Below are positions 10,001 through 44,551 of a stretch of 44,551 nt of DNA, piece by piece. The position numbers and the translations under genes were made by a program. The notes under the pieces are model-generated. The model did no database searches. It was given only the letters and a program-made list of their open reading frames with translations, and was not told the DNA's origin. Source of the stretch: a virus. Position 1 is the first letter of the stretch; each line of letters opens with the position of its first letter. The stretch covers positions 1-44,551 of the IMG/VR virus record IMGVR_UViG_3300010354_000162; one strand, given 5' to 3'.

Positions 10001-10724
10001 CGCTCGTCTACAGACTGTTCAGCAGATAATGGCCAACATCGCTGACATTGGAGGAACCACGAAGGTTGCAGCCGACAAGCTGGCAGCTCTCGGAAACGCT
10101 TTCAGCCCTGACTCTGCTGCAATGAAAGCCGTTAGCAAAGACGGCAACCTTTCTAAGGCAATAAACGCCACAAAAGACATGTTTGCTGGTGAAAACAAAA
10201 TTGATGTCTCAGCGATTCAGACGGCTTCGATAGGTCTCGAGAATGCAAGAAAAATGTTCCAAGACGCTGCTGGTCTTTCTTCTTCGATGACAGAATTCTC
10301 AAACTCTATTTCCTCTTCTGAAGGTGTAGCAAGGCAGGGCATCGCGAGGACTTTAAAGGCTGTCGAAGACATGGTGGCAGCAACTAAAAAGATGGACGCC
10401 GCCCTCGCAAGTATTGACAAGATCGACATTGGCGCTCGTTTAACGCAGGTGGCTGGAGCTATGGGTCTAGGTGGATCTGCTTCGAAAACCTACACAGTAC
10501 AGAGCAAGGAAGTCGTTCTTAACGTGACATTCAACGTCACCATGGACGCCCAAGAGCTCGAGAAGGTGATGATCGGCAACAAGAAGTCAGTCATCAGAGA
10601 CAGAATCAACTTTGCTCTCGATAGAGGTGCAAAGTCTGACACCAACACGAAGAATGCTCTCCTCAAGTCGACCCCTGCATCCATAACAGGATACTACGGA
10701 TCAGACATTCCAGGCTCCCTCTAA
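7068..10724 (+). CDS. Tail tape measure protein
   Basis: The protein has 1218 residues, the longest in the window. It is almost wholly helical and Ala/Lys/Glu-rich, with coiled-coil stretches at about residues 1-90 and 800-1000, Ala/Gly-rich hydrophobic segments near 110-160 (LSLVGGALTGLAQGF, VLGFFFSVADGIFEVGKSILAIPFKMMAGL) and near 770-800 (VLAAAVAAALAGIVFG), and a beta-like end (VVLNVTFNVTMDAQELEKVMIG). Length and hydrophobic islands are typical of tape measure proteins, which set tail length inside the tube and leave at injection. By the usual ~1.5 Å per residue rule the tail would be roughly 180 nm (estimate). Bases ~8870-9770 are more AT-rich than the flanks, hinting at a mosaic gene. 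Confidence 0.85.
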   Translation: MAGEIDPKAAGELAENVKMAGKYAEEALDSFQKQLKVITQMRDAMEEVSKIMSGLSQQDNKALNPDAWKKVTKEVLKNEKASRDASKAFKEVSGSGSKLIKGLSLVGGALTGLAQGFKNVVALGRGVLGFFFSVADGIFEVGKSILAIPFKMMAGLFKMASTGGSNELLEALENVRDAFGDLKSESSRAIVDTAKNIEKMNESGVPSYLIFGNLAGRIKAVTEMAQGMGAAFQVFQGEVEENGTAMMLYQRGLGITNEQMSTIASNAMRMGTSIAKVQNEMTKQALGMSKAFGVNAKVISKDMAKAMSDLAHFGHLSTKEMAVAATFANKLGVSVDKLTAIMDQTATYDQAAEGMSKLNEQYGTNLDATEVMMAQNPAEKVELLRKAFAATGKDMSKLTYQDRMFIKQQTGMSDELMNSAFAAKNAGVSLDRMKTEAEKAEKATMSQTEAIKALGDSIKRTFPSGSGGHGGIMDHFLDGFFRGIQTSKEFIGMMMNIRQVLRIATQEGVKFGREFVNLFPGVKEIFTGIKEVFDPARFRKMFDGVFKALDVFRVSGSGKIEDFVERIKAVFADFTSGGAGEKVKEGFKKFGKAVLGILIATGEWAFNALKDTYKKIVHEFEDPGPTTRAVMQHMTKAISDLSVWITSAAVPFVVNAVESFTNWLKPNELRRNLPPASKVVSTVMEAFKPLGRALMDAGEKLSGPLARLGAVIVDKLWQAVQSVWDAMPWEQKLTILFVKFGPALVNGFVAIGGTAGLKTAAAWVSSFVAGIGAAPAVLAAAVAAALAGIVFGTQWLKDSYAKAREESQKETESFYEDLGKDIDPKSRMQKLQKEMEDASKQAGKTGSWFDRTVDSIFGSGDEHAGHVRRFEAAQQNLWSELRAEAGRSNERVQKLIAENTQGTKEWIAKNSEKALKELGPVTIENATERFKKIEEMSKKVMSKDFDIQGKLDAIRAKLSGINWFIMDEPQQLQMNTALARLQTVQQIMANIADIGGTTKVAADKLAALGNAFSPDSAAMKAVSKDGNLSKAINATKDMFAGENKIDVSAIQTASIGLENARKMFQDAAGLSSSMTEFSNSISSSEGVARQGIARTLKAVEDMVAATKKMDAALASIDKIDIGARLTQVAGAMGLGGSASKTYTVQSKEVVLNVTFNVTMDAQELEKVMIGNKKSVIRDRINFALDRGAKSDTNTKNALLKSTPASITGYYGSDIPGSL

Positions 10725-10759
10725 TATTGTAATTTAATATTCATGGGAGTTTTTAATCA

Positions 10760-11005
10760 ATGAAAAAGGAAGATTATCTCAAGCTGCTTAGAGAGAACGA
10801 CGTGTTTAAGACAGTTCTCTCTCGAGCCACGAGCGACGCCGAGCGCCGCGCCATAAAGGCATACACTGAAGACTTCATGGACAAGTTCTTCACTCAGGTA
10901 TACGAGCCGGTGGCACAAGCGATAGAAAAGGATCCCGAAGCTGTGAAGAACGCATACCTAGAAATCGGCAAGGAATTAATTACTAGTGGCAGTGCCGAAG
11001 GTTAG
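10760..11005 (+). CDS. Hypothetical small tail-region protein
   Basis: The protein has 81 residues, all helical and acidic/basic mixed (EDYLKLLREND, AIKAYTEDFMDKFFTQVYEPVAQAIEKD). GGGAG lies 12 bases upstream of ATG 10760. There are no motifs that I recognise. It sits between the tape measure gene and a 1008-residue structural gene, so a minor tail or assembly role is inferred from position only. Confidence 0.5.
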   Translation: MKKEDYLKLLRENDVFKTVLSRATSDAERRAIKAYTEDFMDKFFTQVYEPVAQAIEKDPEAVKNAYLEIGKELITSGSAEG

Positions 11006-11016
11006 GTCGTCTACAA

Positions 11017-14000
11017 ATGTCTAGGGATAAATTAGATACAGGAACAGGTGGTTTCTCCGTTACTGTCAAAAATTCTACCAACAGGTACACATTTGACACG
11101 GGTTCGACCGTAGGCGACGAGCCTCCGATTCCTTGGAGTCCCGGAGACATTAATGTCGATCATGAGAACAAGGACATATCTAACGGGACGAAGCGCACTC
11201 TCGCGTCGTATTTGAGCAAGACCACACTCGGTCAGACTCCTTCTTCGCCCACATCTGTGAGCAACAAGTATCCAATTGCTCACAATGAGAACGAGGATCC
11301 AAATTCATCCACGTTGAATGACGAGAGGGGCTTTCCTCAACCTCTCTCTCCGTCATCCAAAGAACAGCCACACTTTGTTGACGTTCAGCCCGGAGACAGT
11401 CGGTCTTCTGCCGCTGCAAATTTGAGAATGCTCCGCGGACGTCAACCCGTTGAGATTGGAGTCCTTGTCCCGCCCGACGGCAACGCACTCTTGAAAAACT
11501 TGGAGCTCGAGGCGGATCCCGAAAAACCATACAAGAAGCTTTCTGACCTCGATCCCGTGGGAATCTACAGTAGATCACTGCTCAACAACAGATTCACCTC
11601 AGACAATTCTTATCCCACAAAGCCCGAGACGTCTCAAATAAGAGACGCCCAATACGCCTACAAGTATCCCATGGGCAAGAGTCTTCCAAAGGAAGCACCC
11701 GAGAGAAACATTTCTTACGCGAGGTTGGCACAGATAGGAAATGCTCTTTCCATAAGAGCGGGCCTCGAGCTCAAGTCTCTCGACCCAGGAAACAACCCGA
11801 CAGACAACGCAAGTCAAGCAGGCGCGATATTGCCCGGCTCTACTCAGCTTGGCGTCTATAGACTCGAGAGAGAGCAACTCGAGGCGGCAAGCGTACTTGA
11901 GTCCTTGACGATGGAAGGAATTGACGACAACCTGTTGATCAATCCTGCGAAGCAGTCTTGGGGTACACTAAACAACGTTCTTGATCAATATGCCGGAATA
12001 TCCAATTTTGGAATGCAGCTTCTAGCCGTCGCGCTCATTGTTGCATTGAGTCTCGTTGTCACGCTTATTTCACAGATCCTGCCAGGCATAGACTTGTCTC
12101 CAAATGTTTCTCCAATGGACAACAGTGGCATAAGACCGCTTGGAAGATCTTACGGCAAGAAGAGCAATCGATTGGACTACAGCAGTTTGGCATCTATTGT
12201 TTCTCAGGGCAGCGATTTTGATTTCTGGGGTCTGCTAGGATTTCCTCCCACGATGCACCCATTGAGTAAGTGTCTTGGCGCGGGAGTCCTTCTATTCTTC
12301 GGAATTGCGCCACCTGATAATGCTAGTTTTGGTATTGGAAATCTTTCAGGAATTGCCGCTGCGGAAGGTCCTAAGTCTGCAATGAAGAATCCCGGCTATT
12401 ACACGATAATGGCACGCAGCATCAACAGATCTTTTTTGCTGATCAGTGATTCTCTTCTTTCTCTAGGAAAGTCTTTTGCAAGCGGCAACTTTGTCACAGG
12501 AATGCAGCAGACGCTAGAATTTGTAAATGTTTTTAGAGAGTCAAAATTCATGGGCTCTCTTAAGGTTTTTTCTCGTCTTGGAGATGCATACCTTTATGAT
12601 GCAAAAGACCCAAAGATCACAACAGATGGACGACACTTATCTGAAATAGATAGACAACCAAATACGAATGTTCTCAAAGGAAGACTTAGCCTAAAAGATA
12701 CAATTTTTACTAAACTTACATGGTCTGCTTCGACTGCTGAAAATCTTCTACTGTATCCAAAGGGACTAAAGCATGTTGATGTCAATTCTCTAAAAGCTCT
12801 AGGCGCACCAGCAATCATAAGCGGCAAAGAAGGAGAAGCCGGTAAAGATAGAATTAGTACAACAGATAGAGAAAAAATGGAAGCATCTCTCGATGCTGAG
12901 TACGTTCCTTTCTATTTTCACGATGTTAGAACAAATGAAATATTGAGTTTCCACGCTTTTCTTGCATCACTTAGCGATGACTATTCTGCCACTTACGATT
13001 CTTCTGAGGGATTTGGAAGAGTAGAACCCATCAAGACCTACAAGGGAACACAGCGAAGGATAGGATTTTCTTTCTACGTAGCATCAACTAGCCAGGACGA
13101 TTTCAATGCTATGTGGGAGAAAATAAATAAACTTGTCACACTAGTCTATCCTCAATACACAGAGGGAAGACTGCTTGCGACACCTGACAAGCAGTACAAC
13201 ATACACATGCCTTTCAGTCAGACAATACAGGCTTCGCCGCTTGTTCGAATAAGAATTGGTGATCTTATCAGATCCAACTATAGCAAGTTTAATCTTGCAA
13301 GACTGTTTGGCTACACATATAGAGGTACTAAATTTAACGACATTGATGTGCCAACTACAGAGAATGAAAAGAAAATCGATGAAAAGGTGGCCGTAGAAAA
13401 AGCTAGAAGCAGGGCTTATTCTATAGGCAAGACTTTTATGACTAAGAGTGGTAAAATAACGGGCGCTCAAGTCACGAGCGCTTCATCTGATAATGTTTCC
13501 ATTAATCTGAAGTCTACTTCGTTAGATTACTTACTATTAAAGCTCACTAAAGTAGTAAAAAAGGACGAATTATATGAGTTTGAAGTTATAGCAGATCCTA
13601 ATAATTCGACCGAAGATAGCTATGCTCTCGCTGCAGATATGGATGCAAGTAATCTTTTGGGTGCCAAGGTTTCTTTTAGCGAGGAACTAATAGAGTTTTC
13701 AGAAGATACAGAAGAATTTTACAAACAAGAGTTATTGAGATTGAACGACAAAGAAAGCTCATACTCTGCCAGCGTAGTTGAATTCATGTCTGAAGAGAAA
13801 AACTCTATCACTAAGTCTTTCAAGTCTTCTGGCGGCAAAGGACTCGCTGGGTTTATCGAGTCAATGAGCTTCGATTGGTACGACAGGGTCACCTGGGAAG
13901 TTGCAGGAAATTCTGGAAAGGCTCCCAAGATGTGCAAGGTCACCATATCATTCTCACCCATCCACGACATATCCCCTGGTCTTGATCACGAAGGTGGCAA

Positions 14001-14043
14001 CAGAGCACCAGTTTATTCAGTTGGTGGGTTCTTTAGGAAGTAA
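11017..14043 (+). CDS. Large predicted baseplate/tail structural protein
   Basis: The protein has 1008 residues. The first ~330 are Pro/Ser/Asn-rich and low in structure. Residues ~329-357 form a long hydrophobic stretch (LLAVALIVALSLVVTLISQIL), unusual for a virion protein. The C-terminal third contains beta-rich segments and ends KAPKMCKVTISFSPIHDISPGLD followed by NRAPVYSVGGFF, an ending typical of tail proteins of large phages that build on the tube axis. GGTTAGG serves as SD. Location after the tape measure gene and before a LysM-like baseplate gene supports a hub or wedge role. Codon use becomes AT-rich from ~12300 to ~13760 and returns to normal at the end. Exact counterpart in T4 unknown. 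Confidence 0.6.
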   Translation: MSRDKLDTGTGGFSVTVKNSTNRYTFDTGSTVGDEPPIPWSPGDINVDHENKDISNGTKRTLASYLSKTTLGQTPSSPTSVSNKYPIAHNENEDPNSSTLNDERGFPQPLSPSSKEQPHFVDVQPGDSRSSAAANLRMLRGRQPVEIGVLVPPDGNALLKNLELEADPEKPYKKLSDLDPVGIYSRSLLNNRFTSDNSYPTKPETSQIRDAQYAYKYPMGKSLPKEAPERNISYARLAQIGNALSIRAGLELKSLDPGNNPTDNASQAGAILPGSTQLGVYRLEREQLEAASVLESLTMEGIDDNLLINPAKQSWGTLNNVLDQYAGISNFGMQLLAVALIVALSLVVTLISQILPGIDLSPNVSPMDNSGIRPLGRSYGKKSNRLDYSSLASIVSQGSDFDFWGLLGFPPTMHPLSKCLGAGVLLFFGIAPPDNASFGIGNLSGIAAAEGPKSAMKNPGYYTIMARSINRSFLLISDSLLSLGKSFASGNFVTGMQQTLEFVNVFRESKFMGSLKVFSRLGDAYLYDAKDPKITTDGRHLSEIDRQPNTNVLKGRLSLKDTIFTKLTWSASTAENLLLYPKGLKHVDVNSLKALGAPAIISGKEGEAGKDRISTTDREKMEASLDAEYVPFYFHDVRTNEILSFHAFLASLSDDYSATYDSSEGFGRVEPIKTYKGTQRRIGFSFYVASTSQDDFNAMWEKINKLVTLVYPQYTEGRLLATPDKQYNIHMPFSQTIQASPLVRIRIGDLIRSNYSKFNLARLFGYTYRGTKFNDIDVPTTENEKKIDEKVAVEKARSRAYSIGKTFMTKSGKITGAQVTSASSDNVSINLKSTSLDYLLLKLTKVVKKDELYEFEVIADPNNSTEDSYALAADMDASNLLGAKVSFSEELIEFSEDTEEFYKQELLRLNDKESSYSASVVEFMSEEKNSITKSFKSSGGKGLAGFIESMSFDWYDRVTWEVAGNSGKAPKMCKVTISFSPIHDISPGLDHEGGNRAPVYSVGGFFRK

Positions 14044-14058
14044 AGCAGGAGGTGTAGC

Positions 14059-14355
14059 ATGGCAACAAGCAGATACGGCACAGACTCTCGAATAAATCTT
14101 GGACAACAGCTTGGAACACCAGACGCTTCTCTTCTCCTGAAGCGCGCCATAAAAGAAGGACGAGTTCCAATCGTCTCTTCATTCACTCTCACGGGCAACG
14201 ACAGACTCGACTCTTTAGCGGGTACAGTCTACGGCGACGCCAAGTATTGGTGGGTACTGGCAATTGCTAGTGGAATTGGATGGGGACTTCAGGTTCCACC
14301 TGGGACTGTCATTAACGTTGTTAGCCTCTCTGATGCGCTTCTATATGTGAGATAA
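14059..14355 (+). CDS. LysM-like baseplate protein (gp53/gpX type)
   Basis: The protein has 98 residues. The core, DRLDSLAGTVYGDAKYWWVL then AIASGIGWGLQVPPGTVINVV, matches the small LysM-like fold in baseplate/tail proteins (D-L---A---YGD---WW-IA--N-I--P----PG--I--P). In T4 the gp53 wedge protein has a LysM domain and in P2 gpX is the equivalent; these help join wedges around the hub. A very strong SD (AGGAGGTG) lies six bases before ATG 14059. The stop overlaps the leader of the next structural gene by only two bases. Confidence 0.75.
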   Translation: MATSRYGTDSRINLGQQLGTPDASLLLKRAIKEGRVPIVSSFTLTGNDRLDSLAGTVYGDAKYWWVLAIASGIGWGLQVPPGTVINVVSLSDALLYVR

Positions 14356-14356
14356 C

Positions 14357-17299
14357 ATGGATTTCAAGAATCTTGAAGACATCTACAAGTATCTAAAGCC
14401 TTCCGACTTACAAGGAAGCTTTCAAGAGTCTACGACTAAAAAAGAGAGCATCGTCGACATTCTCTCTAAGATGATCTTGGCTCCCCGCGGCGAACTGTAT
14501 TCAAGCAAAGTTATATTTGAAGAAGTAAAAAAACATTTTAGCAAAACTTCCGAAGAAACCACAAGAAAAAATACCGGTACTCAATTTCATGCGATAACAA
14601 GCTCAGAACGTCTTAATCTCGCTGATGAGGATTACTGGGGGAAAGGTGTAGAAAATTTGTCCGGAATTATCGGAGCCATAAAAGAGAAGAATTTCGTGGC
14701 CTCGGTCTTTGTAACAAAAAGTCCCTACATAACACCGGCAGCTCGCGGGACAGACAACGTTGATTTTTTCTTGAATTATACACCTCCCGTAGTCGCCTCT
14801 TCTATGGTGCCCTACCTTGACGTTGAATTTCAAATGCAGGGCGCTTCCCTCGATTCGCTCAATACCCCCAGTGCTTTAAGATTTTTGATAGGTGCAAAAG
14901 CCGATAGCGAGCTGACTCCACAGGACAAGGTCATCAGAGACTCTGACTTATTTAAGCCTCAAAATGGGGAGGAAAGCTTTGGTTTGTCTGGGATGGAAAT
15001 GTTTCTAATGCCTCAGACTCTCACAAACATGGACGACCTCCTTCCGCACAAGGGGCGCCTCGTCCGCGCGAAACCCTTTCTACCATTTGCAACTCTCCAG
15101 GGATTCGACGTTACAATTTCCAATGCTGGTGCGGGAGCGTTCGCGCACAAGAAGGGCACATTAAAATTCGTAATACACGATAAGGCAAGGATCTCTGAGA
15201 TTGCAGAATTTATTAAGGGAAGCTCTGGATTCAACAAGGCCATAATTTGGACGACTTACGGCTGGATTGCTCCCATGAACAGGATGCAGGACGACGACTA
15301 CGCGAAATTCATAAACGAGTCCATGATCATTCGCGAGTGTTGGTCCGTCGTGAATTCTCAATTCTCTTTTGACGGATCGGGTCAGGTCTCGATGAACCTT
15401 GAGCTTGTCAGTAGAGCTGCAAAAGCTCTCGAGAATCTAACTGTCGATGAAGTCAGCGACGAGATAAAAGACTTTCACAACGTGATAAAGTCAATCGCTG
15501 AGATAAAGACAAAACTTGTCGGTGAGAATAAGTTCGCCATCAGCGTTTCTGCTGACCAGCTACTTAACGCAGCATCCACTAGCGGCTTCCTAAACGAGCT
15601 AAAAGACGTAAAGAGAACCATAGCTTCGCTCAAAGCGAATCTTGAGTACAGCAACTTACCTGAAGCACAGTCAAATGAATTGAAAGACAAGCTCGACTCC
15701 TTGAACGAAGGCAAGTACAGCTACGATAAAATAAAGAAGTCTATCGGGGCGTCTGTCGCAAAGAAATTTAAGGACTTGTCAAACAACAAGGATCCGTTTC
15801 TTGCTTCTAAAGATAAAAATCCTGAGTATTTTGTCGATTCGTGGCTTGCAAAATCCATCAGCGATTTTAAAGAAAAGCACGAAAAGAGAATGGAAGTCAT
15901 CAGAAAATCCGCGGAAAACAACCCGGACTTGAACGTTGGCATTGAGGTCGTTTCTTTTGGAAAGCTTTTCACCTCTTTTGTTGCTCCTCGAGTCGCTTCG
16001 TCTGAATCTTGCGATGAATTGCAAATATTTTTCTACGGACTCAACGATCAGTGCGGTCCCCTCAGCAACCAGAGCATCGCAGAGTTTCCTGTCAATCTTA
16101 CAGCCCTAAAATACGCCTATAACAATGCCATCAAAACCACGGGCCTCGAATCTCTATCGGTACAGGCTTTCCTTAGGTTGATCATAGAGACACAGTTTTC
16201 TGATCAGCGTGCAATAGGCTACGGTATGAATTCCTACTTTGACCAAATTGATCCCACGAAGCCCAATGAGATACACAGGATCGAAAACAGCAAAGACGTA
16301 GAAGCTGGCATGAGCAAGTGGATTTCTCGGTACGGTTCTCTCACAATGCCAATCATAGAGATGTTCGTAGAGAACGGTGAAGAAAGCGACAAGATAAAGT
16401 ACACTGTAGAACAATTAAAGAGAAGTGCGACACGTCTCAATTACGAGGAGAACAATGCCGTACCTGCTTCCAGAGGAGGATCCAAGCGGATCATAAAGCG
16501 TATTCACATCTATGATCGTGCCAACAATCCTTATAGATTGGCGCAGCAAATAATAGATACTGGTTCGAGTTTTGAAGTTGCAGAAGTTCTCACTGGACCT
16601 GCTGACGCAAATCTAAGAGAGGCCATAAAGGGAATGGACTCTGCAAAGCTAAAGAAGCTTCAGACAGATCTTAACAGCGGCGTAGATTATAAGACGGCGC
16701 TCAACAATGCAGGAGTAGGTCAAGAGACTGTTAACAGCATCGTAAAGATTCGACAACCCGGCGCTGGCGCTGACAAGATTGTAATACCGAAGGACAGAAA
16801 GAAGTTGAAAGAGTACTTGATGTCTCAAGTTCCTTGCATATTTGTGGGAACTAACGGAACTATGGTTCTTAGCAGTAACGCTGCATCTTCCACGTCTGGT
16901 CTCCAAGGTGCAATAAACATAATGAATGCCTCTAAGTCTGCAGCAAAAGGTCAGGCTACTGTCTCGGGCAATCCTCTCGAGGAAGTCGGAGGATTGCCTC
17001 TCAGAACTGTTCCAATTCAATTGACAATGACGACGATGGGAGTGCCCATCGCACAGCTTTATCAGACGTACTTCGTAGACTTCGAGACAGGAACGTCTTT
17101 AGACAACATCTATAACTGCACTCAGCTTCAACACTCCATAACACCAGGTAAGTTCACTACTAACTGGACTTTCATGTACGCCAGCGGCTACGGAAAGTTT
17201 ACGGCTCCCCCGACAATTACAGGCTTAATGGATCAGAGAGCTAGGATTGTCATAAATGAAGCAGTTGCAGCTTTAGCTCCAAAGCCTTCAAAGAAATAG
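14357..17299 (+). CDS. Large predicted baseplate hub/structural protein
   Basis: The protein has 980 residues. Visible blocks: VPYLDVEFQMQ near residue 153, TLQGFDVTISNAGAGAFAHKKGTLKFVIHDKARI near 250-280 (read in two pieces, TLQGFDVTISN and KGTLKFVIHDKARI), a charged helical middle (~380-520) and a beta-rich C-terminus with TMTTMGVPIAQLYQTYFVDF, TGTSLDNIYNCTQLQHSITP and GKFTTNWTFMY. The ending resembles hub-type proteins, in which a strand-rich domain with 'H-I-PGKF-T' closes the sequence. It starts two bases after the LysM-like gene. Likely part of the baseplate centre; no T4 name can be given safely. Confidence 0.6.
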   Translation: MDFKNLEDIYKYLKPSDLQGSFQESTTKKESIVDILSKMILAPRGELYSSKVIFEEVKKHFSKTSEETTRKNTGTQFHAITSSERLNLADEDYWGKGVENLSGIIGAIKEKNFVASVFVTKSPYITPAARGTDNVDFFLNYTPPVVASSMVPYLDVEFQMQGASLDSLNTPSALRFLIGAKADSELTPQDKVIRDSDLFKPQNGEESFGLSGMEMFLMPQTLTNMDDLLPHKGRLVRAKPFLPFATLQGFDVTISNAGAGAFAHKKGTLKFVIHDKARISEIAEFIKGSSGFNKAIIWTTYGWIAPMNRMQDDDYAKFINESMIIRECWSVVNSQFSFDGSGQVSMNLELVSRAAKALENLTVDEVSDEIKDFHNVIKSIAEIKTKLVGENKFAISVSADQLLNAASTSGFLNELKDVKRTIASLKANLEYSNLPEAQSNELKDKLDSLNEGKYSYDKIKKSIGASVAKKFKDLSNNKDPFLASKDKNPEYFVDSWLAKSISDFKEKHEKRMEVIRKSAENNPDLNVGIEVVSFGKLFTSFVAPRVASSESCDELQIFFYGLNDQCGPLSNQSIAEFPVNLTALKYAYNNAIKTTGLESLSVQAFLRLIIETQFSDQRAIGYGMNSYFDQIDPTKPNEIHRIENSKDVEAGMSKWISRYGSLTMPIIEMFVENGEESDKIKYTVEQLKRSATRLNYEENNAVPASRGGSKRIIKRIHIYDRANNPYRLAQQIIDTGSSFEVAEVLTGPADANLREAIKGMDSAKLKKLQTDLNSGVDYKTALNNAGVGQETVNSIVKIRQPGAGADKIVIPKDRKKLKEYLMSQVPCIFVGTNGTMVLSSNAASSTSGLQGAINIMNASKSAAKGQATVSGNPLEEVGGLPLRTVPIQLTMTTMGVPIAQLYQTYFVDFETGTSLDNIYNCTQLQHSITPGKFTTNWTFMYASGYGKFTAPPTITGLMDQRARIVINEAVAALAPKPSKK

Positions 17300-22409: not shown

Positions 22410-23414
22410 ATGGCTAAAGGATTAGACGTTGGAACCTCATTTATCGTCCTCTCATCCGAGGGTGACGGAGGAACTGTTGAGTACAAGGATTTCAGAGATG
22501 CTTTCTATGTGATCAAGCCCACAACTCCGATCGCATCGAAGATGATTGAAAAGGGACTCGCTGGAAAAGTTTTCGTAAAAGATACAGACGGGTCATACAT
22601 CATTCTCGGCAAGGACGCAATTGAAAAAGCTGTAGAGCGAAATGACTCTGCCAAGCGTCCGATGTATCGAGGAGTAGTCTCCACAAAGGAGAAAGACGCC
22701 AGAAGAGTTCTCTCGTATATACTTAAGGAAGTCGCTGGAAAGGCAACAAAGAGAGGCGAAAAACTTGTCTTCTGCGTTCCTGCACAACCAGTGGATCAGG
22801 AAGACGATGATTTTGATGTTGGCTACCATGAGGACGTCGTCAAGAAGGTCCTCGAAGAATGTGGTTATGAAGCTCGGGCAATCAATGAAGCAGAAGCGCT
22901 ATGTTACTCGGAGCTTGCGGACGATGACTATACCGGTGTTGCCCTGTCTTGGGGCGCGGGTATGGTTAACGTTTGTGTCATGCTGAACGGTGAACCTGTC
23001 GTCAAGTTCTCCACCACCAAGTCCGGTGACTGGGTAGATCGCATGGCTGCTGTTGCCACTGGAGAGACAGACTCAGTAGTACAATCTGAGAAGGAGCAAG
23101 GAGATTTCACGATCGGAAAGCCGTGTGACAATCAAGTCCTAGCTGCAGTTTCGTCGTATTACGATAGACTTATTGACTACACTACGAAGCAGCTTGCAGC
23201 GGCAATGGATGGTCACAAATCTCTTCCAAAGTTTAAGGACCCCCTCCCAGTCGTAGTAGCTGGTGGCACCACGAAAGCCAAGGGTTTTGTTAATCACTTT
23301 GAGAAGAAGCTCAATGAGAACGGTTTCCCGCTCCCTGTCAGAGAGGTAAAGCATGCCTCTGATCCGCTTCACGCAGTCGCTCGCGGCTGCCTAATCGCAT
23401 CTCAGATTCTCTAA
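22410..23414 (+). CDS. Actin/Hsp70-superfamily ATPase (ParM/MreB-like)
   Basis: The protein has 334 residues. The nucleotide-binding motifs of the actin fold are in order: phosphate-1 GLDVGTSFIVL (residues 4-14), connect-1 region INEAEALCYSEL (~158-169), phosphate-2 LSWGAGMVNVCVM (179-191; the usual Asp before the Gly pair is Ser), GDWVDR (206-211) and adenosine motif VVVAGGTTKAKGF (281-293). Such proteins are either filament-forming ATPases (ParM, Alp, MreB) or Hsp70-like chaperones; no substrate-binding domain is attached, so a filament-type ATPase is more likely. Possible roles are positioning replicating DNA or building an intracellular scaffold. Confidence 0.7.
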   Translation: MAKGLDVGTSFIVLSSEGDGGTVEYKDFRDAFYVIKPTTPIASKMIEKGLAGKVFVKDTDGSYIILGKDAIEKAVERNDSAKRPMYRGVVSTKEKDARRVLSYILKEVAGKATKRGEKLVFCVPAQPVDQEDDDFDVGYHEDVVKKVLEECGYEARAINEAEALCYSELADDDYTGVALSWGAGMVNVCVMLNGEPVVKFSTTKSGDWVDRMAAVATGETDSVVQSEKEQGDFTIGKPCDNQVLAAVSSYYDRLIDYTTKQLAAAMDGHKSLPKFKDPLPVVVAGGTTKAKGFVNHFEKKLNENGFPLPVREVKHASDPLHAVARGCLIASQIL

Positions 23415-29532: not shown

Positions 29533-30192
29533 ATGCCCGAACAACTCAACAGAGTAGAATTAATCGGTTTTTATGGTGGAGATGAATCCCACGCCCTTTC
29601 GGCGTGGACCTCCACCTCTCGTGATTTGACGGACGAGAAGAGGGAGAGAATTCCCAAGCTTCTGAAAATGCTCGCAGAGAATGGACACGAAACTCCCTTC
29701 GAGAAGAGTTCGCTCCACTTCCTGTGCACGACCGAGATTGCTTCACATATCCATTTGATTAAGCATCGCATCGGAGTCTCCGTGAACGGAGAGTCAGCTC
29801 GATACAAGGAGTTGAAGGACGACAAGTATTACGTTCCTACAGACTGGGACACAGAGGAGAAGACGAAGTACGTCGAGCACATGGAGGCTTCCCTGAAGAG
29901 ATACCACGAGGTTCTCACACGTCTCGAGAAGAAGGGCGTTCCTCGGAAGAGAGCCAAGGAATCTGCCAGGATGTATGTTCCTTACGGGAATCAGCTCACG
30001 GCTGACGTGATGTTCAACTTCAGGAGCTTCGTTCACTTCCTCAGACTGCGATACTCCACACACGCCCAGCTGGAGATTCGCGACTTGGCAGGTGAGATGC
30101 TGAGACTCGTCAAGGAAACTGGACAGTTTGATGCCACACTCGAAGCTTTCGGTTTGCTTGTTGATGGACAGCTAAGAGGACCTTTCGAATGA
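29533..30192 (+). CDS. thyX: Flavin-dependent thymidylate synthase ThyX
   Basis: The protein has 219 residues. The signature is KHRIGVSVNGESARY (K77-H78-R79 ... S88, R90), a phage variant of RHRx7S with Lys for the first Arg and one extra residue before the Ser. ARMYVPYGNQLTADVMFNFR and FLRLRYSTHAQLEIRDLA supply the other dUMP/FAD contacts. It methylates dUMP to dTMP with methylenetetrahydrofolate and NAD(P)H. The ATG follows TAATATGACTAC with no SD; this may be a leaderless start. It overlaps tmk by four bases. A second, divergent ThyX-like protein is coded at 43679. Confidence 0.9.
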   Translation: MPEQLNRVELIGFYGGDESHALSAWTSTSRDLTDEKRERIPKLLKMLAENGHETPFEKSSLHFLCTTEIASHIHLIKHRIGVSVNGESARYKELKDDKYYVPTDWDTEEKTKYVEHMEASLKRYHEVLTRLEKKGVPRKRAKESARMYVPYGNQLTADVMFNFRSFVHFLRLRYSTHAQLEIRDLAGEMLRLVKETGQFDATLEAFGLLVDGQLRGPFE

Positions 30193-31129: not shown

Positions 31130-31519
31130 ATGATGAACATTAGATACGACTCGATGCTGAAGACACCGACTCTCTTCGACACCCTTCGTACGCTAGAGGA
31201 CCTTTACTCGACCCCCACGTCTCGTACGAGGGTGTACACCAACACCTCAGTGTACAGGACGGAAGAGAAAGACAACGAACTCCATCTCTCCATCGATCTA
31301 CCGGGAGTAAAGAGCAAGGACATCTCCGTGCAGGTCACGGGGCGTGAGATCAAAGTTACCGGAAAACTTAGGGGAGAAGACTTCAAGTACTCCTACGTTC
31401 TCTCCAGAGACCACGATCCAGAAACTGTTGTGGCTACCCACGAAGACGGAGTCCTCACTCTCACTTTCGGGAAGACGTCGAGCGCAAAAACAAAGACGGT
31501 TGAGATCAAGGTAAAGTAA
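31130..31519 (+). CDS. Small heat-shock protein, Hsp20/alpha-crystallin family
   Basis: The protein has 129 residues. The alpha-crystallin domain spans ~40-129: ELHLSIDLPGVKSKDISVQV, REIKVTGKL, and the closing DGVLTLTFGK. There is a short N-terminal arm (LFDTLRTLEDLYSTP) for oligomerisation and a C-terminal tail VEIKVK that could act as the IxI-like motif. It holds unfolded proteins without ATP; phages may use it to stabilise virion proteins or protect replication under stress. The leader is structured (see 31047). Two consecutive ATGs exist; the first has the better SD spacing. Confidence 0.9.
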   Translation: MMNIRYDSMLKTPTLFDTLRTLEDLYSTPTSRTRVYTNTSVYRTEEKDNELHLSIDLPGVKSKDISVQVTGREIKVTGKLRGEDFKYSYVLSRDHDPETVVATHEDGVLTLTFGKTSSAKTKTVEIKVK

Positions 31520-32531: not shown

Positions 32532-32566
32532 TTGGTCGATGTAATCTTTGCATCGACCAATTTAGT
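32532..32566 (+). terminator. Hairpin terminator after the Ala-rich gene
   Basis: A ten-bp perfect stem (TTGGTCGATG at 32532-32541 with 32551-32560), nine-base loop, then TTTAGTATCTT. The T-tract is broken, so strength is uncertain. Confidence 0.6.
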
Positions 32567-33803: not shown

Positions 33804-34760
33804 ATGCTAATTCTTCCTCCAAGACGATTACGTAATAACTCTCGCGTAGCTATTGTGGCTCCTTCTGGCCCTATCGTCTCGGACGAAGTCCAGGCAGGAA
33901 TTGATATCATCAGAGAGTGCGGCCTTGAGCCTGTCTTGGGACCTTGTGTTAAGAATCTTAAGACTACAGGAGATCATGCAGGCTCTGTTAGAGATAGAGT
34001 TGATGAGCTCAACTGGGCATTTTCACAGCCTGGCATTGCAGGAGTCATAGGTGCTGTTGGAGGTGAAGGATCTGCAGCAGTTCTTCCCTATCTTGATTAC
34101 GACAAGATACGTGCTTCCCAAAAGCCATTTTTGGGAATGTCTGATCTCACTGCGATCAACACAGCACTGTTTACCAAGTCTGGTCTCATTTCTATAAATG
34201 GCCAGACGCCCTCTATTCGTCTGGACAAGGGAAGAAAAATTCAAGAGGCGGACTCAGAATCTTTCAAACTTACTCTTGAATTGCTTAAGTCCGACCAACT
34301 GTGGGGTTCTCGTCCCTTCTACTTTAATCCTTTCTTTCCAAGAACAGTATCTCCCGGAAAAGTCTCGGGAATTTCTATTGGAGGAAATCTTGACACTTTT
34401 GTCCATCTAGTTGGAACCCCCTATATGCCCATCCCTGAGAATATGATTCTATTCGTAGAGGATGTTCACAAGGAAGGCGTTGAGCTTTCTCGAGAGTTTC
34501 TTCACCTGCGACTCTCTGGTTTTCTTGGTAGTGTTTCAGGAATTGTCGTTGGACAATTTGAGGACGTACCGAAAGATCTCGAAGGGAAGGTTCCATCAGT
34601 AGAAGACGTTCTTCTCGAATATTGCGGTCATGGTCCACCTTGTGCTTACGGCTACAGTTTCTCCCACGGCCCCCTCACGAGCCCGATACCTATCGGCGCA
34701 AATACTTGCGTTGATGCGGACACGGGCGAAGTATCATTTGACTTCAAGATGTCGTCATGA
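33804..34760 (+). CDS. LD-carboxypeptidase (peptidase S66, LdcA/MccF-like)
   Basis: The protein has 318 residues, close to the usual 300-340. The N-terminus SRVAIVAPSGPI is the S66 opening. The catalytic triad is in place: S113 in GMSDLTAIN, E219 in ILFVEDV and H288 in FSHGPLTSPIPIGAN. Other family blocks are VGGEGSAAVLPYLDYD and GGNLDTFVHLVGTPYMP. LdcA enzymes cut the L-Lys/Dap-D-Ala bond of murein tetrapeptides; MccF enzymes of the same family cleave microcin C and similar peptide-nucleotides. There is no signal peptide, so it acts in the cytoplasm. Possible roles are murein recycling during lysis or detoxification. ATGA overlap with the HNH gene. Confidence 0.85.
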   Translation: MLILPPRRLRNNSRVAIVAPSGPIVSDEVQAGIDIIRECGLEPVLGPCVKNLKTTGDHAGSVRDRVDELNWAFSQPGIAGVIGAVGGEGSAAVLPYLDYDKIRASQKPFLGMSDLTAINTALFTKSGLISINGQTPSIRLDKGRKIQEADSESFKLTLELLKSDQLWGSRPFYFNPFFPRTVSPGKVSGISIGGNLDTFVHLVGTPYMPIPENMILFVEDVHKEGVELSREFLHLRLSGFLGSVSGIVVGQFEDVPKDLEGKVPSVEDVLLEYCGHGPPCAYGYSFSHGPLTSPIPIGANTCVDADTGEVSFDFKMSS

Positions 34761-35291: not shown

Positions 35292-35486
35292 ATGAAAATA
35301 AAATTGAGTGATCTAAGAAAGATAATCAGAGAAGAAATTGAGATGGCAGGATCTCAACCCGAAGAAGGGTATACTGAAGAGCTTTTAAGTGATCCCAAAT
35401 TTAAGGAAAAAAGCGTCTTTGTTAGAGATTCTGCAAAGAAAAAGATATTATCTTGGGCCAAAGACATGAAGTTGTCCACTAAATAG
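35292..35486 (+). CDS. Small protein with LRKIIREE leader
   Basis: The protein has 64 residues. MKIKLSDLRKIIREEIEMAG is the clearest copy of the amphipathic leader that recurs in this window (compare 37239 and 35537). An acidic stretch and a basic C-terminal helix (SAKKKILSWAKDMKLSTK) follow. GATAGTTAG lies just upstream of the ATG and there is no SD. No known function. Confidence 0.5.
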   Translation: MKIKLSDLRKIIREEIEMAGSQPEEGYTEELLSDPKFKEKSVFVRDSAKKKILSWAKDMKLSTK

Positions 35487-35536: not shown

Positions 35537-36691
35537 ATGCATCTGAAGCTTAAAGAGCTGCAGCAAGTAGCAAAGAAAACGATAAAAGAAGAACAGAAGT
35601 ATGCGACAATTCGCGAAGAGTTTTTCCGCGTTTTCGGTCCACCAGTGATGGTATCAAAAAATTGTGATAGAGTTGCAGAGGCAGTTAATGAACAACTCGA
35701 TCTTTCTGAAGCCTTTAGAAGAGAGGTTCAGCGAGGCAGCGTCAAGACGTCTGTCCTTATAGAGGCTTCTATAAGCAATTCTGCAGCACTGAGAAAAGTT
35801 GCTGCTCGTCTTCTTCCTGAAAAAATGGTTGTTAGACTCCTCGAAGATCCTTCTTCTTCTGTTAGATGCGCAGCTGCCAAGCGCTTGCCTTACGAGGCAA
35901 TAAGGGAGTCAATCAAAAAGTTTCCAAATGACGATCAGCTTCTCACGATAGCCAGGCAGAAGAAGCTGCAAGAAGCCGGTCTCCCAGATCCAGAAGAAGT
36001 AGACGAGCCTTTTGACATGTACGGTGAAGAGCCGCTCGGAGATTCAGTTAAAACACACAAGAGCGACAAGGACCTACCAGATACTTGGTATAAGCGTCTT
36101 GCACACAAGATTTGTAGTGACTACGGTGGAAACCTTGAAGGAAACTGGGAAGAGACCATCGCAACACGAATAGTCGCGAGTCACTACTCTACGACCGGCG
36201 TCAAGCTCGACAGAGACAAGCTTCTCAATTCTATCTATGACTGCATAAAGGAAAGAGAAGACGAGGTCCTCGGTGAGGGATCTCTCAGAGCAATTGCTCG
36301 CCGTCTCATGAAAGAGTCGTATCTTGATTCTTCAGTTATGCCTATCGTAGAAGAAGACGTGAGAGACCCCGTTGTCGATCTACTGGAATCGAACTATTCT
36401 ACGGCGCAGTACGTCGACGAAGCTGAAAGATTATTTTCCGTAAAGAAGTCGAGTGTTCCAAGCGGAATAAAGAAGTACAGGCTTGGTGAAGGGAGTCACG
36501 TTGAAACTCTCGTCCCAGTTAATGGCAAGATACCTGGTGGTTCGATGACCTCCGTGGTTGAGCAGGCTCTTGATCGATATGTAGATTCATGGAATAAGAG
36601 ACAGGCACTTGCAGGAGAACCTTATAGACTTTCGTGGGGACCCCACGGATCTGGCATCAATATGGTCGGATTCAACCTGGAGCTTAAGTAA
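35537..36691 (+). CDS. Hypothetical protein with HEAT-like repeats and LxE-type leader
   Basis: The protein has 384 residues. The leader MHLKLKELQQVAKKTIKEEQ is again basic amphipathic with IKE-E. Residues ~85-140 contain paired-helix units (LRKVAARLLPEKMVVRLLED, then SSVRCAAAKRLPYEAIRESI) like HEAT or 'leucine-rich repeat variant' units that bind proteins or nucleic acid. The middle is acidic (GLPDPEEVDEPFDMYGEE) and the C-terminus is a compact domain ending SGINMVGFNLELK. SD TAGGAG at 35521-35526. It is coupled to the Dps-like gene by a TAATG junction. Confidence 0.55.
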   Translation: MHLKLKELQQVAKKTIKEEQKYATIREEFFRVFGPPVMVSKNCDRVAEAVNEQLDLSEAFRREVQRGSVKTSVLIEASISNSAALRKVAARLLPEKMVVRLLEDPSSSVRCAAAKRLPYEAIRESIKKFPNDDQLLTIARQKKLQEAGLPDPEEVDEPFDMYGEEPLGDSVKTHKSDKDLPDTWYKRLAHKICSDYGGNLEGNWEETIATRIVASHYSTTGVKLDRDKLLNSIYDCIKEREDEVLGEGSLRAIARRLMKESYLDSSVMPIVEEDVRDPVVDLLESNYSTAQYVDEAERLFSVKKSSVPSGIKKYRLGEGSHVETLVPVNGKIPGGSMTSVVEQALDRYVDSWNKRQALAGEPYRLSWGPHGSGINMVGFNLELK

Positions 36692-37242
36692 TGAAGAAAA
36701 GACTCGTAGAAACCCTTGAGATGGCTCTTGTCGTGGAACCCAACCTCGACATCATCACAGAGAACATGGTTTCAGAGTGGGGAGGAGTTCCGTACCCAGA
36801 GCTCTCTGTCCTCCTCGTCCACCTCAAGTTCCTCGCTGCAGTCCACCAGAATCATCACTGGATCACGAAGGGCGATCCTTTCTACGGAGATCATCTCCTC
36901 TTCTCTCGAATCTATGAGGCTACTGCAGCAGACATTGACTCTCTTGCAGAAAAAGCCATCGGTCTCGGTTGCACTTCGAACGTGGACGTCGTCCTTCAGC
37001 ACAAGCAGCTATGCCAGCTACTTCAGGGATATGGAATGACTGCCACGATTCCACAGCCCACCGAACTTGCTAAGCGTTCCTACCTCGCTGAGATGAACTT
37101 CCTTAAGGCTGCTGCTCATCTAGCGGAGCATCTCAAGGCGAACGGCACTATGTCCCGTGGACTCGACAACCTTCTCGCTGGAATCGAGGACAAGCATGAA
37201 GGACACATCTATCTCCTCAAACAAAGGATTATGCCACAATGA
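36691..37242 (+). CDS. Dps/ferritin-like protein
   Basis: The protein has 183 residues. The four-helix ferritin core starts at ~35. The block H56-W57-I-T-K-G ... H68 ... D83-S-L-A-E87-K-A-I-G-L-G aligns without gaps to the E. coli Dps ferroxidase region as I remember it (H51, H63, D78, E82), with Ser72 at the D67 position. Such proteins form 12-mers, oxidise Fe(II) with peroxide and store iron, and many bind DNA. The ~30-residue N-terminal extension begins MKKRLVETLEMALVVE, basic then amphipathic, like the leaders of the neighbouring genes. Likely role: protection of DNA from oxidative damage, in the cell or packed in the capsid. ATGA overlap with the next gene. Confidence 0.8.
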   Translation: MKKRLVETLEMALVVEPNLDIITENMVSEWGGVPYPELSVLLVHLKFLAAVHQNHHWITKGDPFYGDHLLFSRIYEATAADIDSLAEKAIGLGCTSNVDVVLQHKQLCQLLQGYGMTATIPQPTELAKRSYLAEMNFLKAAAHLAEHLKANGTMSRGLDNLLAGIEDKHEGHIYLLKQRIMPQ

Positions 37243-37853
37243 AGCTTACAGCATCGATGCTTAGAAAGATTATCTCAGAGGAGATTTCTAAGATAAAGCC
37301 AAAGAAGAATCTTACAGAAGCAATGACTCGCATCACAGAAGATGAGATGGCAGCCTGGAAGAACGGAAACTGGGGTTACGTCGCCGGGGACGATCATGAA
37401 CCTGCTGTTGATTTTGATGATGATGATCGATTTCTACACGGTTCTGAGCATGGTGCTGCTCAAGATGACGAAGGATACATGGCAAAGTCACAGCTCTCTT
37501 CAATGAAGGAGATGGCGCATGACATCTGCGAGCTTCTCGATTATGATGATCAGCTTCCCGGATGGGTACAAAGCCACATAGCAGTTGCTCACGAGAATCT
37601 TCAGCAGGTTCACGGTTATCTTACTGGCGATGCGAATCTCGAAGCATACGGCGAGGAAGACGAGCACGAGCACGAGGTGCACGCTGAAGCGAAATCTAAG
37701 GGACCTTCCAAGAAGACTGCACAGAAGATACTAAAGGGAACAAAGACCTTCAAAGACAAGGTTAAGAAGGTTGAGAAGTGGGCTGATGAACCAGAGGCGG
37801 CAGCAGCTTGGATGATGCACAAGGCCACAGGAAAGTGGCCAAGCGAGAAGTGA
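37239..37853 (+). CDS. Aquatic-phage conserved protein with IISEE leader
   Basis: The protein has 204 residues. Leader: MKLTASMLRKIISEEISK, then NLTEAMTRITED with more LxE/IxE sites. The central domain GYMAKSQLSSMKEMAHDICE, LDYDDQLPGWVQSHIAVAHE, NLQQVHGYL is a block that I know as recurrent in phages of aquatic bacteria (MAKSQL...A..L...L.DDDQLP.WVQS.IA.A......V..YL). An acidic/His linker (EEDEHEHEVHAEAK) leads to a basic helix and AWMMHKATGKWPSEK. Function not established; presence of separable modules suggests a virion-associated role. Confidence 0.6.
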   Translation: MKLTASMLRKIISEEISKIKPKKNLTEAMTRITEDEMAAWKNGNWGYVAGDDHEPAVDFDDDDRFLHGSEHGAAQDDEGYMAKSQLSSMKEMAHDICELLDYDDQLPGWVQSHIAVAHENLQQVHGYLTGDANLEAYGEEDEHEHEVHAEAKSKGPSKKTAQKILKGTKTFKDKVKKVEKWADEPEAAAAWMMHKATGKWPSEK

Positions 37854-37854
37854 A

Positions 37855-38421
37855 ATGTCGAACGAAGAGCTATCATTGACAGAGGAAGATCTTCGCAACC
37901 TTATCAAAGATGCCCTAGAAGAAGCTAAGAAGAAAGATGCTTCAGACAAGCCCCACCCAAGACAATACGGTGCAAAACAGGGGACAAAGCGTGATCGTGA
38001 CCTCGACAGAGCGAAAGAGCTTGCAAAGAGCGATGATCCCGAAGACAGGAAGCGAGCTTATAAACTACGGGCTGACATGGAAGAGAAAGAGCGTGAGAAA
38101 CCCGGCTTCAAGAGTAAGCCACGCGATGATTCTGAGTCTGCAAAAGAAGGTATAGCGCTTCTTCAAGATCTCATATCTGAAGTTTTAAATGAGGCTCTTT
38201 CTGCTAAGACCAAAGAAACCCTTAGGAAGAAAGCTGAGAAACGAGGTCTCACTCCTGGTTCTGTAGAGGCAGAGTACAAAAAGGGGCTTGCTGCTTGGGC
38301 TACTTCAGGTTCACGCAAGGGAATGTCACAGCACCAGTGGGCAATGGCAAGAGTCAACTCAGCCAATCCGTCCAAATCTTGGGCGGTTGTAAAGAAGTCA
38401 AAATCAAAGAAAAAGAAGTAA
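37855..38421 (+). CDS. Basic conserved phage protein (QHQWAMARVNSF-like domain)
   Basis: The protein has 188 residues and is very rich in Lys, Glu and Asp. N-terminus: LTEEDLRNLIKDALEEAKKK, an LxE-type leader variant. The C-terminal ~70 residues contain LRKKAEKRGLTPGSVEAEYK, GLAAWATSGSRKGMSQHQWA and MARVNSANPSK, a small domain that occurs by itself in many large phages (K..L..KA...G.....L......G..AW..........Q.W..ARV.SF). The tail KKSKSKKKK is strongly basic and could bind nucleic acid. It ends at a bidirectional terminator. Confidence 0.6.
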   Translation: MSNEELSLTEEDLRNLIKDALEEAKKKDASDKPHPRQYGAKQGTKRDRDLDRAKELAKSDDPEDRKRAYKLRADMEEKEREKPGFKSKPRDDSESAKEGIALLQDLISEVLNEALSAKTKETLRKKAEKRGLTPGSVEAEYKKGLAAWATSGSRKGMSQHQWAMARVNSANPSKSWAVVKKSKSKKKK

Positions 38422-38432
38422 ATTAAAAACGA

Positions 38433-38460
38433 AAAACGGCCTCGAAAGAGGCCGTTTCTT
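38433..38460. terminator. Bidirectional terminator between convergent genes
   Basis: AACGGCCTC (38435-38443), GAAA tetraloop, GAGGCCGTT (38448-38456), followed on the plus strand by TCTTATTT and on the minus strand by TTTCGTTTTT. It ends both the plus-strand cluster and the single minus-strand gene. Confidence 0.9.
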
Positions 38461-43678: not shown

Positions 43679-44551
43679 ATGCCCATCAATAAAGATCTAG
43701 AACCAATCGAACTCCCAATGGTCCTCAAGTTCGGTCAAGAACCGAAGACCACTTTCCTTAACAACCTCGACGCTCTCAAAGTGGAGCTAGTCGATCACCC
43801 GACCCGCCAACAGGCATGGAACGTGGCATGGCACTACGTCAAGGCCACCTGGGCAGATCGCCCAGACATCGACCCGACTGAAGGAGTGTCGCAGCAGGAA
43901 CTCTCCAAGAACCTCGAGGACGTATTTGGTGGGCGCACTCTTCCTGCTCCAATGGAGTGCCTCGGCTTCACGTTCCGTCTCAGCGGCCTGTCCTTCCAGG
44001 AGGTGACTCACATCATTCGCCACCGTGCAGGTACTTTCGCTGCACAGTGCACGGGTGATCGCGACCTCCGTGATGACGACGTGGTCGTTCCGGAACCCGT
44101 GCAGAACTCGCCCGACTTCCTTCGCCGCTGGGAGAAGATCGTAAACGACTCCAAGGAACTTTACGCTGAGATGGTCGACTCCAAGGCGGTCTCCATGATG
44201 GATGCCCGACTCATCCTCCCGAAGTGCATGACCTCGTTCTACTACATGCGACTGTCGCTCAAGGACCTCATCGGTTTCATTTACCAGCGCATGGACACGC
44301 AGATCCAGCCTGCTGCTGACAACCTCCTCGCCTCGAGAATGGCCGTAGAAGTCGCCAAGGTGATTCCTGAGTTCACGTCGGTGATCGACTTCAACAAGCC
44401 CGATATGCACTACATCAAGACCTTCCGCGTGAAGGAAGGTGACAAGTTCGTGTCCCGTGGCACTAACCTCTACTGGCCTATTCCAAAGAACGACAAGTTC
44501 GAGTTCCACCCGAACGACACGATCTACCAGTGCACGAGGGAGGAGATCAAT
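43679..44551 (+). CDS. ThyX-like protein, divergent second copy (3' end cut off)
   Basis: The frame runs 291 codons from ATG 43679 (SD TGGAGA) to the window end without a stop. The ThyX core can be followed: FTFRLSGLSFQEVTHIIRHR with RHR at 114-116, then AGTFAAQC so that C124 stands where the usual RHRx7S has Ser, then RDL; MMDARLILPKCMTSFYYMRL (AR..LP ... R) and FIYQRMDTQIQPAADNLLA. A ~90-residue N-terminal and a >70-residue C-terminal extension are unusual. It is unlike the standard ThyX at 29533, so a different substrate (another dUMP reaction or a modified pyrimidine) is possible. Codons are very C-rich compared with its neighbours, suggesting high expression or other origin. Confidence 0.6.
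   Translation, partial: MPINKDLEPIELPMVLKFGQEPKTTFLNNLDALKVELVDHPTRQQAWNVAWHYVKATWADRPDIDPTEGVSQQELSKNLEDVFGGRTLPAPMECLGFTFRLSGLSFQEVTHIIRHRAGTFAAQCTGDRDLRDDDVVVPEPVQNSPDFLRRWEKIVNDSKELYAEMVDSKAVSMMDARLILPKCMTSFYYMRLSLKDLIGFIYQRMDTQIQPAADNLLASRMAVEVAKVIPEFTSVIDFNKPDMHYIKTFRVKEGDKFVSRGTNLYWPIPKNDKFEFHPNDTIYQCTREEIN

Follow-up and report, generated by a model that had tools for sequence, protein, structure and literature searches.

A predicted Dps-type miniferritin of jumbo phages with an invariant putative ferroxidase site and an acidic residue that alternates between two positions

A gene for a predicted Dps-type miniferritin was found in a 44,551-nt stretch of viral DNA (IMG/VR record IMGVR_UViG_3300010354_000162, positions 1 to 44,551; hereafter called the window). 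Its sequence and modelled fold suggest, with a probability that we put at about 0.62, a working ferroxidase cage of canonical Dps type, belonging to a phage-specific subfamily, which would be made during infection and limit Fenton damage. The subunits would assemble into the usual dodecamer. At the two-fold interface, one subunit would contribute H56 and H68 to the binding of Fe2+ and its neighbour D83 and E87, and Glu76 would take the place of the Asp67 of E. coli Dps. The bound Fe2+ would be oxidised with H2O2 or O2, and then stored. Produced from a multi-gene unit in the course of infection, such a cage would leave the infected cell with less free iron and peroxide, and phage DNA and enzymes would suffer less Fenton damage.

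The gene is located as follows.

36691..37242, + strand: dps, encoding a 183-aa Dps-type miniferritin; ATG start, intact open reading frame; assigned from sequence and predicted fold

The single 183-aa sequence matched PHROG 3636 ("DNA binding protein") at 1.5e-8, and its matches in the PDB (phmmer) were Dps-family chains and engineered Dps fusions only, the best being Dlp-1 (1ji5, 7e-6). When a family profile made from 62 relatives was searched against the PDB, Nostoc Dps4 was reached at 3e-12, and 40 distinct Dps-type sequences were matched at E <= 0.001. Such similarity lies well outside what chance would produce. As the single sequence had no match in Pfam at E <= 0.01, the Dps assignment rests on PHROGs, on the PDB profile search and on the fold. 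We conclude that this open reading frame is a real gene, and that its product is, as judged from sequence and model, a Dps-type miniferritin.

The subunit model (AlphaFold2, single chain, 62-row alignment) is confident, with a pLDDT of 91.1 and a pTM of 0.87. Helices are predicted at residues 36-58, 64-92, 100-114, 123-150 and 156-180, and they make up a four-helix bundle whose BC loop contains a short helix, a mark of Dps. Residues 1-12 have a pLDDT below 50 and form a disordered N-terminus. All 22 Foldseek matches at E <= 0.001 were Dps. Similarly, the VIA-align list was almost wholly composed of Dps proteins, headed by M. smegmatis Dps2 (Z 18.1, rmsd 2.2 over 144 residues), with mini-bacterioferritin and DpsL ranking lower. 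From the single-chain model we infer a dodecamer with an interface metal site.

Conservation of the putative metal site was analysed in a set of 62 distinct phage homologues. The relevant codons are given below.

36856..36858, + strand: H56, ferroxidase ligand (E. coli H51), 62/62
36892..36894, + strand: H68, ferroxidase ligand (E. coli H63), 62/62
36904..36906, + strand: S72, position of E. coli D67, variable in the 62-protein alignment
36916..36918, + strand: E76, one helical turn beyond S72, proposed as the replacement carboxylate from its anti-association with position 72
36937..36939, + strand: D83, ferroxidase ligand (E. coli D78), 62/62
36949..36951, + strand: E87, ferroxidase ligand (E. 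coli E82), 62/62

The ligands of E. coli Dps are H51, H63, D67, D78 and E82, a numbering that also draws on a published description (PMC6675082). The original prediction had placed H56, H68, D83 and E87 at the spacing of H51, H63, D78 and E82, and the residue numbers are right: all four of these ligands of the interface ferroxidase site (two His, an Asp and a Glu) are present in the window protein. H56, W57, H68, D83 and E87 were invariant in all 62 homologues. The four ligands are thus conserved in relatives, and the proposed Dps identity, with conservation of the ferroxidase site, is supported by the sequences and by the predicted subunit fold. Invariance of these five residues among such divergent proteins indicates strong selection on the site. 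An apparently intact site would agree with sequestration of iron in the infected cell. A second, buried metal site made of the near-invariant H52, E134 and E170 was rejected, as the bacterioferritin ligand set is incomplete; E134 probably has a structural role, since a matching helix-C Glu is also present in NpDps4.

The replacement of D67 by Ser72, also part of the original prediction, is real, but it has to be seen as one instance of a family-wide switch, in which the acid has moved to position 76. Position 72 is E in 25 proteins, Q in 22, S in 8, D in 4 and another residue in 3, so that an acid (D/E) is found there in 29 of the 62. Position 76 is non-acidic in 26 of these 29, and acidic in 27 of the 33 proteins that have no acid at 72. 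One or the other position is acidic in 56/62 proteins (Glu76 in the window), and neither in the remaining six. A Fisher test of the anti-association gave p 9.5e-9, in a type of count that kinship inflates. By corrected mutual information, the 72/76 pair ranked 6 among 10,011 column pairs, and it ranked first among 171 acid/non-acid pairs.

For the kinship tests, a tree was built without columns 72 and 76. Independent pairs on its supported branches gave 0 changes in the same direction and 5.4 in opposite directions on average, a result that is suggestive only (median p 0.06). When two independent characters were simulated on the tree, proteins with exactly one acid numbered 48 at most, versus 53/62 observed, a value reached in none of 5000 simulations. 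By this simulation coincidence is excluded, and Ser72 of the window therefore appears as one half of a swap with Glu76. Loss of the acid at 72 looks compensated by 76, and the patterned relocation of the fifth acid argues that a carboxylate matters there, as the pattern would otherwise be senseless. Helix geometry suggests that Glu76 may reach the metal. NpDps4, an accepted Dps, has Asn67 instead of Asp67 and still binds two irons (PMC6675082). No description was found of a ferroxidase site whose site-B carboxylate has moved by one helical turn.

Cyanobacterial Dps4/DpsA proteins (NpDps4, 5hjf; TeDpsA, 2vxx; TlDps1, 6lkp) gave the best profile matches and the top Foldseek rows, at about 20% identity with the window protein, and NpDps4 resembles it in the non-acidic residue at position 67. 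However, the cyanobacterial Dps4-type centre is of the His type, with His78 and His164 (PMC6675082), whereas the window family has no His at position 78 (D83 is Asp in 62/62) and has a Leu facing His164 in a hand alignment. A His-type Dps was ruled out by this Asp at D83. With the canonical proteins (E. coli Dps, Bacillus anthracis Dlp-1 and Listeria Dps), the window protein has in common the subunit fold, the BC helix, and the two His, Asp and Glu ligands at identical spacing. It differs from them in that Asp67 is not fixed, the acid alternating with position 76, in its N-terminus, and in being encoded by a phage. DpsL of P. aeruginosa (PA4880) also has the Dps fold (VIA Z 16.3), but its metal site is buried within the subunit and consists of E47, E80, H83, E130, E162 and H165 (PMC11150526). 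The window family conserves the interface-type ligands and lacks part of the buried set: neither a conserved acid in mid-helix A nor a conserved ExxH in mid-helix B was found among the 62 homologues. Assignment to the DpsL type, with its bacterioferritin-type site (E, ExxH, E and ExxH on helices A-D), was rejected for want of the required ligands.

Scans of IMG/VR returned 31 loci with the window protein and 71 with the family alignment, and many of the contigs measured 100-510 kb. No family member turned up when 84,980 species genomes of bacteria and archaea (GTDB) were scanned in the same manner, with short motifs that distant relatives can escape. A comparison of the IMG/VR and cellular scans points to a phage-only Dps lineage kept over long divergence. 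Host contamination was rejected, as the short-motif GTDB scan showed no cellular relatives and the genes around dps resemble those of a phage. The window protein matched a single INPHARED record at E <= 1e-5, an unannotated 485-kb phage (33%), and E. coli Dps as a query matched 111 records, mostly Streptomyces and Lactobacillus phages. When the right half of the window was compared with known phages for near-identical sequence, nothing matched. Dps had already been reported in Gratiaviridae, other gut phages and Lactobacillus phages (PMC8008677); with the 111 INPHARED records, this means that the idea of Dps being rare on phages was overstated. The known Dps genes of Streptomyces, Lactobacillus, Gratiaviridae and other gut phages likewise lie on phage genomes, but they belong to other phage groups and are not matched by the window protein at E <= 1e-5. 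Phage Dps is therefore known, and the window family is, by its sequences, a separate Dps lineage of jumbo phages, found on viral contigs. Some distant members (L087, L091, L094, L095 and L102) have C-terminal extensions, for a total of 226-316 aa.

In the window, dps is flanked by the following features.

32532..32560, + strand: terminator-like hairpin upstream of the unit; consensus match only
35537..36691, + strand: 384-aa LRV/HEAT-repeat protein with the neighbours' leader, directly upstream; 1-nt overlap with the dps start (TAATG)
37239..37853, + strand: 204-aa protein with the genome-wide leader MKLTASMLRKIISEEI; 4-nt overlap with the dps stop (ATGA)
37855..38421, + strand: DUF5824 protein of 188 aa, encoded by the last gene of the unit
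38434..38457, both strands: terminator-like hairpin at the end of the transcription unit; consensus match only

The two hairpins bracket the dps unit. Sites resembling the T4-type late promoter (TATAAATA) were not enriched near dps. The same repeat-protein gene lies directly upstream of dps in 41 of the 71 loci as well as in the window, with a stop-start overlap that is most often 4 nt (25 loci) and is 1 nt in the window. This pairing is absent from the distant clades, where the ligands are retained. With the partner profile, the leucine-rich-repeat-variant protein 1lrv was matched at 1.5e-18. The model of the partner is of fair quality (pLDDT 80.8, pTM 0.42) and a structure search gave no match at E <= 0.001, so that the LRV assignment rests on the profile match to 1lrv. 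The phages of the window's clade that carry the dps/repeat-gene pair are jumbo phages with a T4-type capsid protein and a prohead protease. Phage replication and nucleotide genes are also carried by the window.

Several other genes were noted. The window encodes, all on the + strand, an actin-like protein of the Volactin family (22410-23414; PF25216, E 7e-67), an HSP20 small heat-shock protein conserved in many related loci (31130-31519; PF00011, 3e-12), an LD-carboxypeptidase of peptidase family S66, a cell-wall enzyme whose gene precedes dps by a few genes (33804-34760), and two thymidylate-synthase-type genes, both phrog_85 (29533-30192 and 43679-44551), of which the second, ThyX (Thy1), is cut off by the end of the window. 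No PHROG match at E <= 0.001 was obtained for three very large proteins (1218, 1008 and 980 aa; 7068-17299, + strand). In a distant clade, an actin-like gene cluster (c11, by eye) is found directly downstream of dps (L076-L081, L089).

The ferroxidase-cage reading alone leaves two features unexplained, the constant partner gene and a motif at the N-terminus of Dps.

36691..36711, + strand: codons 1-7, MKKRLVE, disordered basic N-terminus with the [LI]xE motif; pLDDT < 50, conserved in the window's clade

In this clade, the N-terminal pattern consists of basic residues, then [LIMF]xE, then usually Ser or Thr. Nearly all members have 2-4 basic residues in the disordered segment (MKKRL; MKKKKL in relatives), ahead of a motif placed 6-8 residues from the Dps start. 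The [LI]xE motif is kept in about 30 of them, by means of varied Leu/Ile codons and both Glu codons, and the basic-[LI]xE pattern is otherwise rare, occurring in only 2/442 and 2/294 N-termini of two related genomes. The gp21 protease of T4 cleaves after L/I-X-E, and ten N-terminal residues suffice for head targeting (PMC9026906). The T4 internal proteins (IPI-IPIII, Alt) likewise begin with a short segment that ends in [LI]xE, and phages of the window's clade also have a prohead protease of T4 type; in the window protein, unlike these, basic residues precede the motif and the putative mature part is a Dps. Both an S77 (T4 gp21-type) prohead protease and a gp23-type capsid protein were found in 10/10 main-clade contigs of at least 160 kb, versus 0/7 distant-clade contigs, the Dps of which mostly have no motif.

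These observations speak for a packaged Dps. The basic-[LI]xE N-terminus would be a short capsid-targeting sequence, the protein would enter the prohead, the T4-type protease would cut after Glu7 (or Glu10), and mature Dps would sit in the head and be delivered with the DNA to protect it. However, L067 and L072 have the prohead protease and a Dps devoid of the motif, dps is located away from the head genes, and the clade correlation between motif and protease is also what shared ancestry would give. The window record is a 44.5-kb fragment, within which no prohead protease was seen. Packaging is, from the sequences, a possible and legitimate hypothesis, if a rather unlikely one. Its most complete form, a head Dps that is targeted by its N-terminus, trimmed by the protease and injected for immediate protection against iron and peroxide, with its site-B carboxylate moved by one helical turn, is doubtful.

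A leader similar to that of the neighbouring genes had also been attributed to Dps. The neighbours' leader is helix-like, of the MKITxxQLRRIIREEI type, with roughly ten to fifteen occurrences per related genome; pattern matches in two such genomes numbered 20 and 16, some of them by chance, versus about 4 and 3 expected. It also occurs beside the prohead protease and a likely scaffold gene. With a position weight matrix for this leader, three window neighbours scored 18-38 bits and Dps scored -10, as an ordinary N-terminus does. The similarity did not survive this test, by which an N-terminus of the neighbours' kind was ruled out for Dps, and the mismatch with the leader of the head gene cluster also counts against packaging. 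The leader class itself is found on many otherwise unrelated jumbo-phage proteins (window 35292-35486, 35537-36691 and 37239-37853; L114-L139), and is possibly a prohead-targeting helix. Literature searches yielded no relevant work that ties phage Dps to prohead proteases or to auxiliary genes.

The other main rival takes the basic tail at face value: it would bind DNA, as E. coli Dps does with its Lys-rich tail, and the protein would condense or shield phage or host DNA. The 2-4 basic residues of the disordered N-terminus agree with this, but the protein as a whole is acidic (pI 6.0, charge about -5 at pH 7), the tail is short and absent in distant clades, and a basic tail does not account for the conserved [LI]xE. 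We regard DNA binding as improbable. It conflicts in part with packaging, as a cut after Glu7 would remove the basic tail. That Dps would be a scaffold for the upstream LRV/HEAT-repeat protein, its ferroxidase activity being incidental or lost, is very improbable: the gene pairing is very tight and over half of the family members have a replacement for Asp67, but a pure scaffold needs neither four other ligands invariant in 62/62 nor a fifth replaced in a pattern, and in distant clades the ligands remain where the pairing is absent.

The window family, for which a ferroxidase cage acting in the infected cell is our preferred reading, offers a clean case for studying the purpose of phage-carried Dps genes. 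It combines a virus-only lineage, an apparently intact metal site, a patterned relocation of an acid, a gene partner that stays constant, and an N-terminus from which a yes/no prediction for packaging follows. An iron-handling cage that is packaged and injected would, if true, represent a novel means by which phages protect their DNA on entry.
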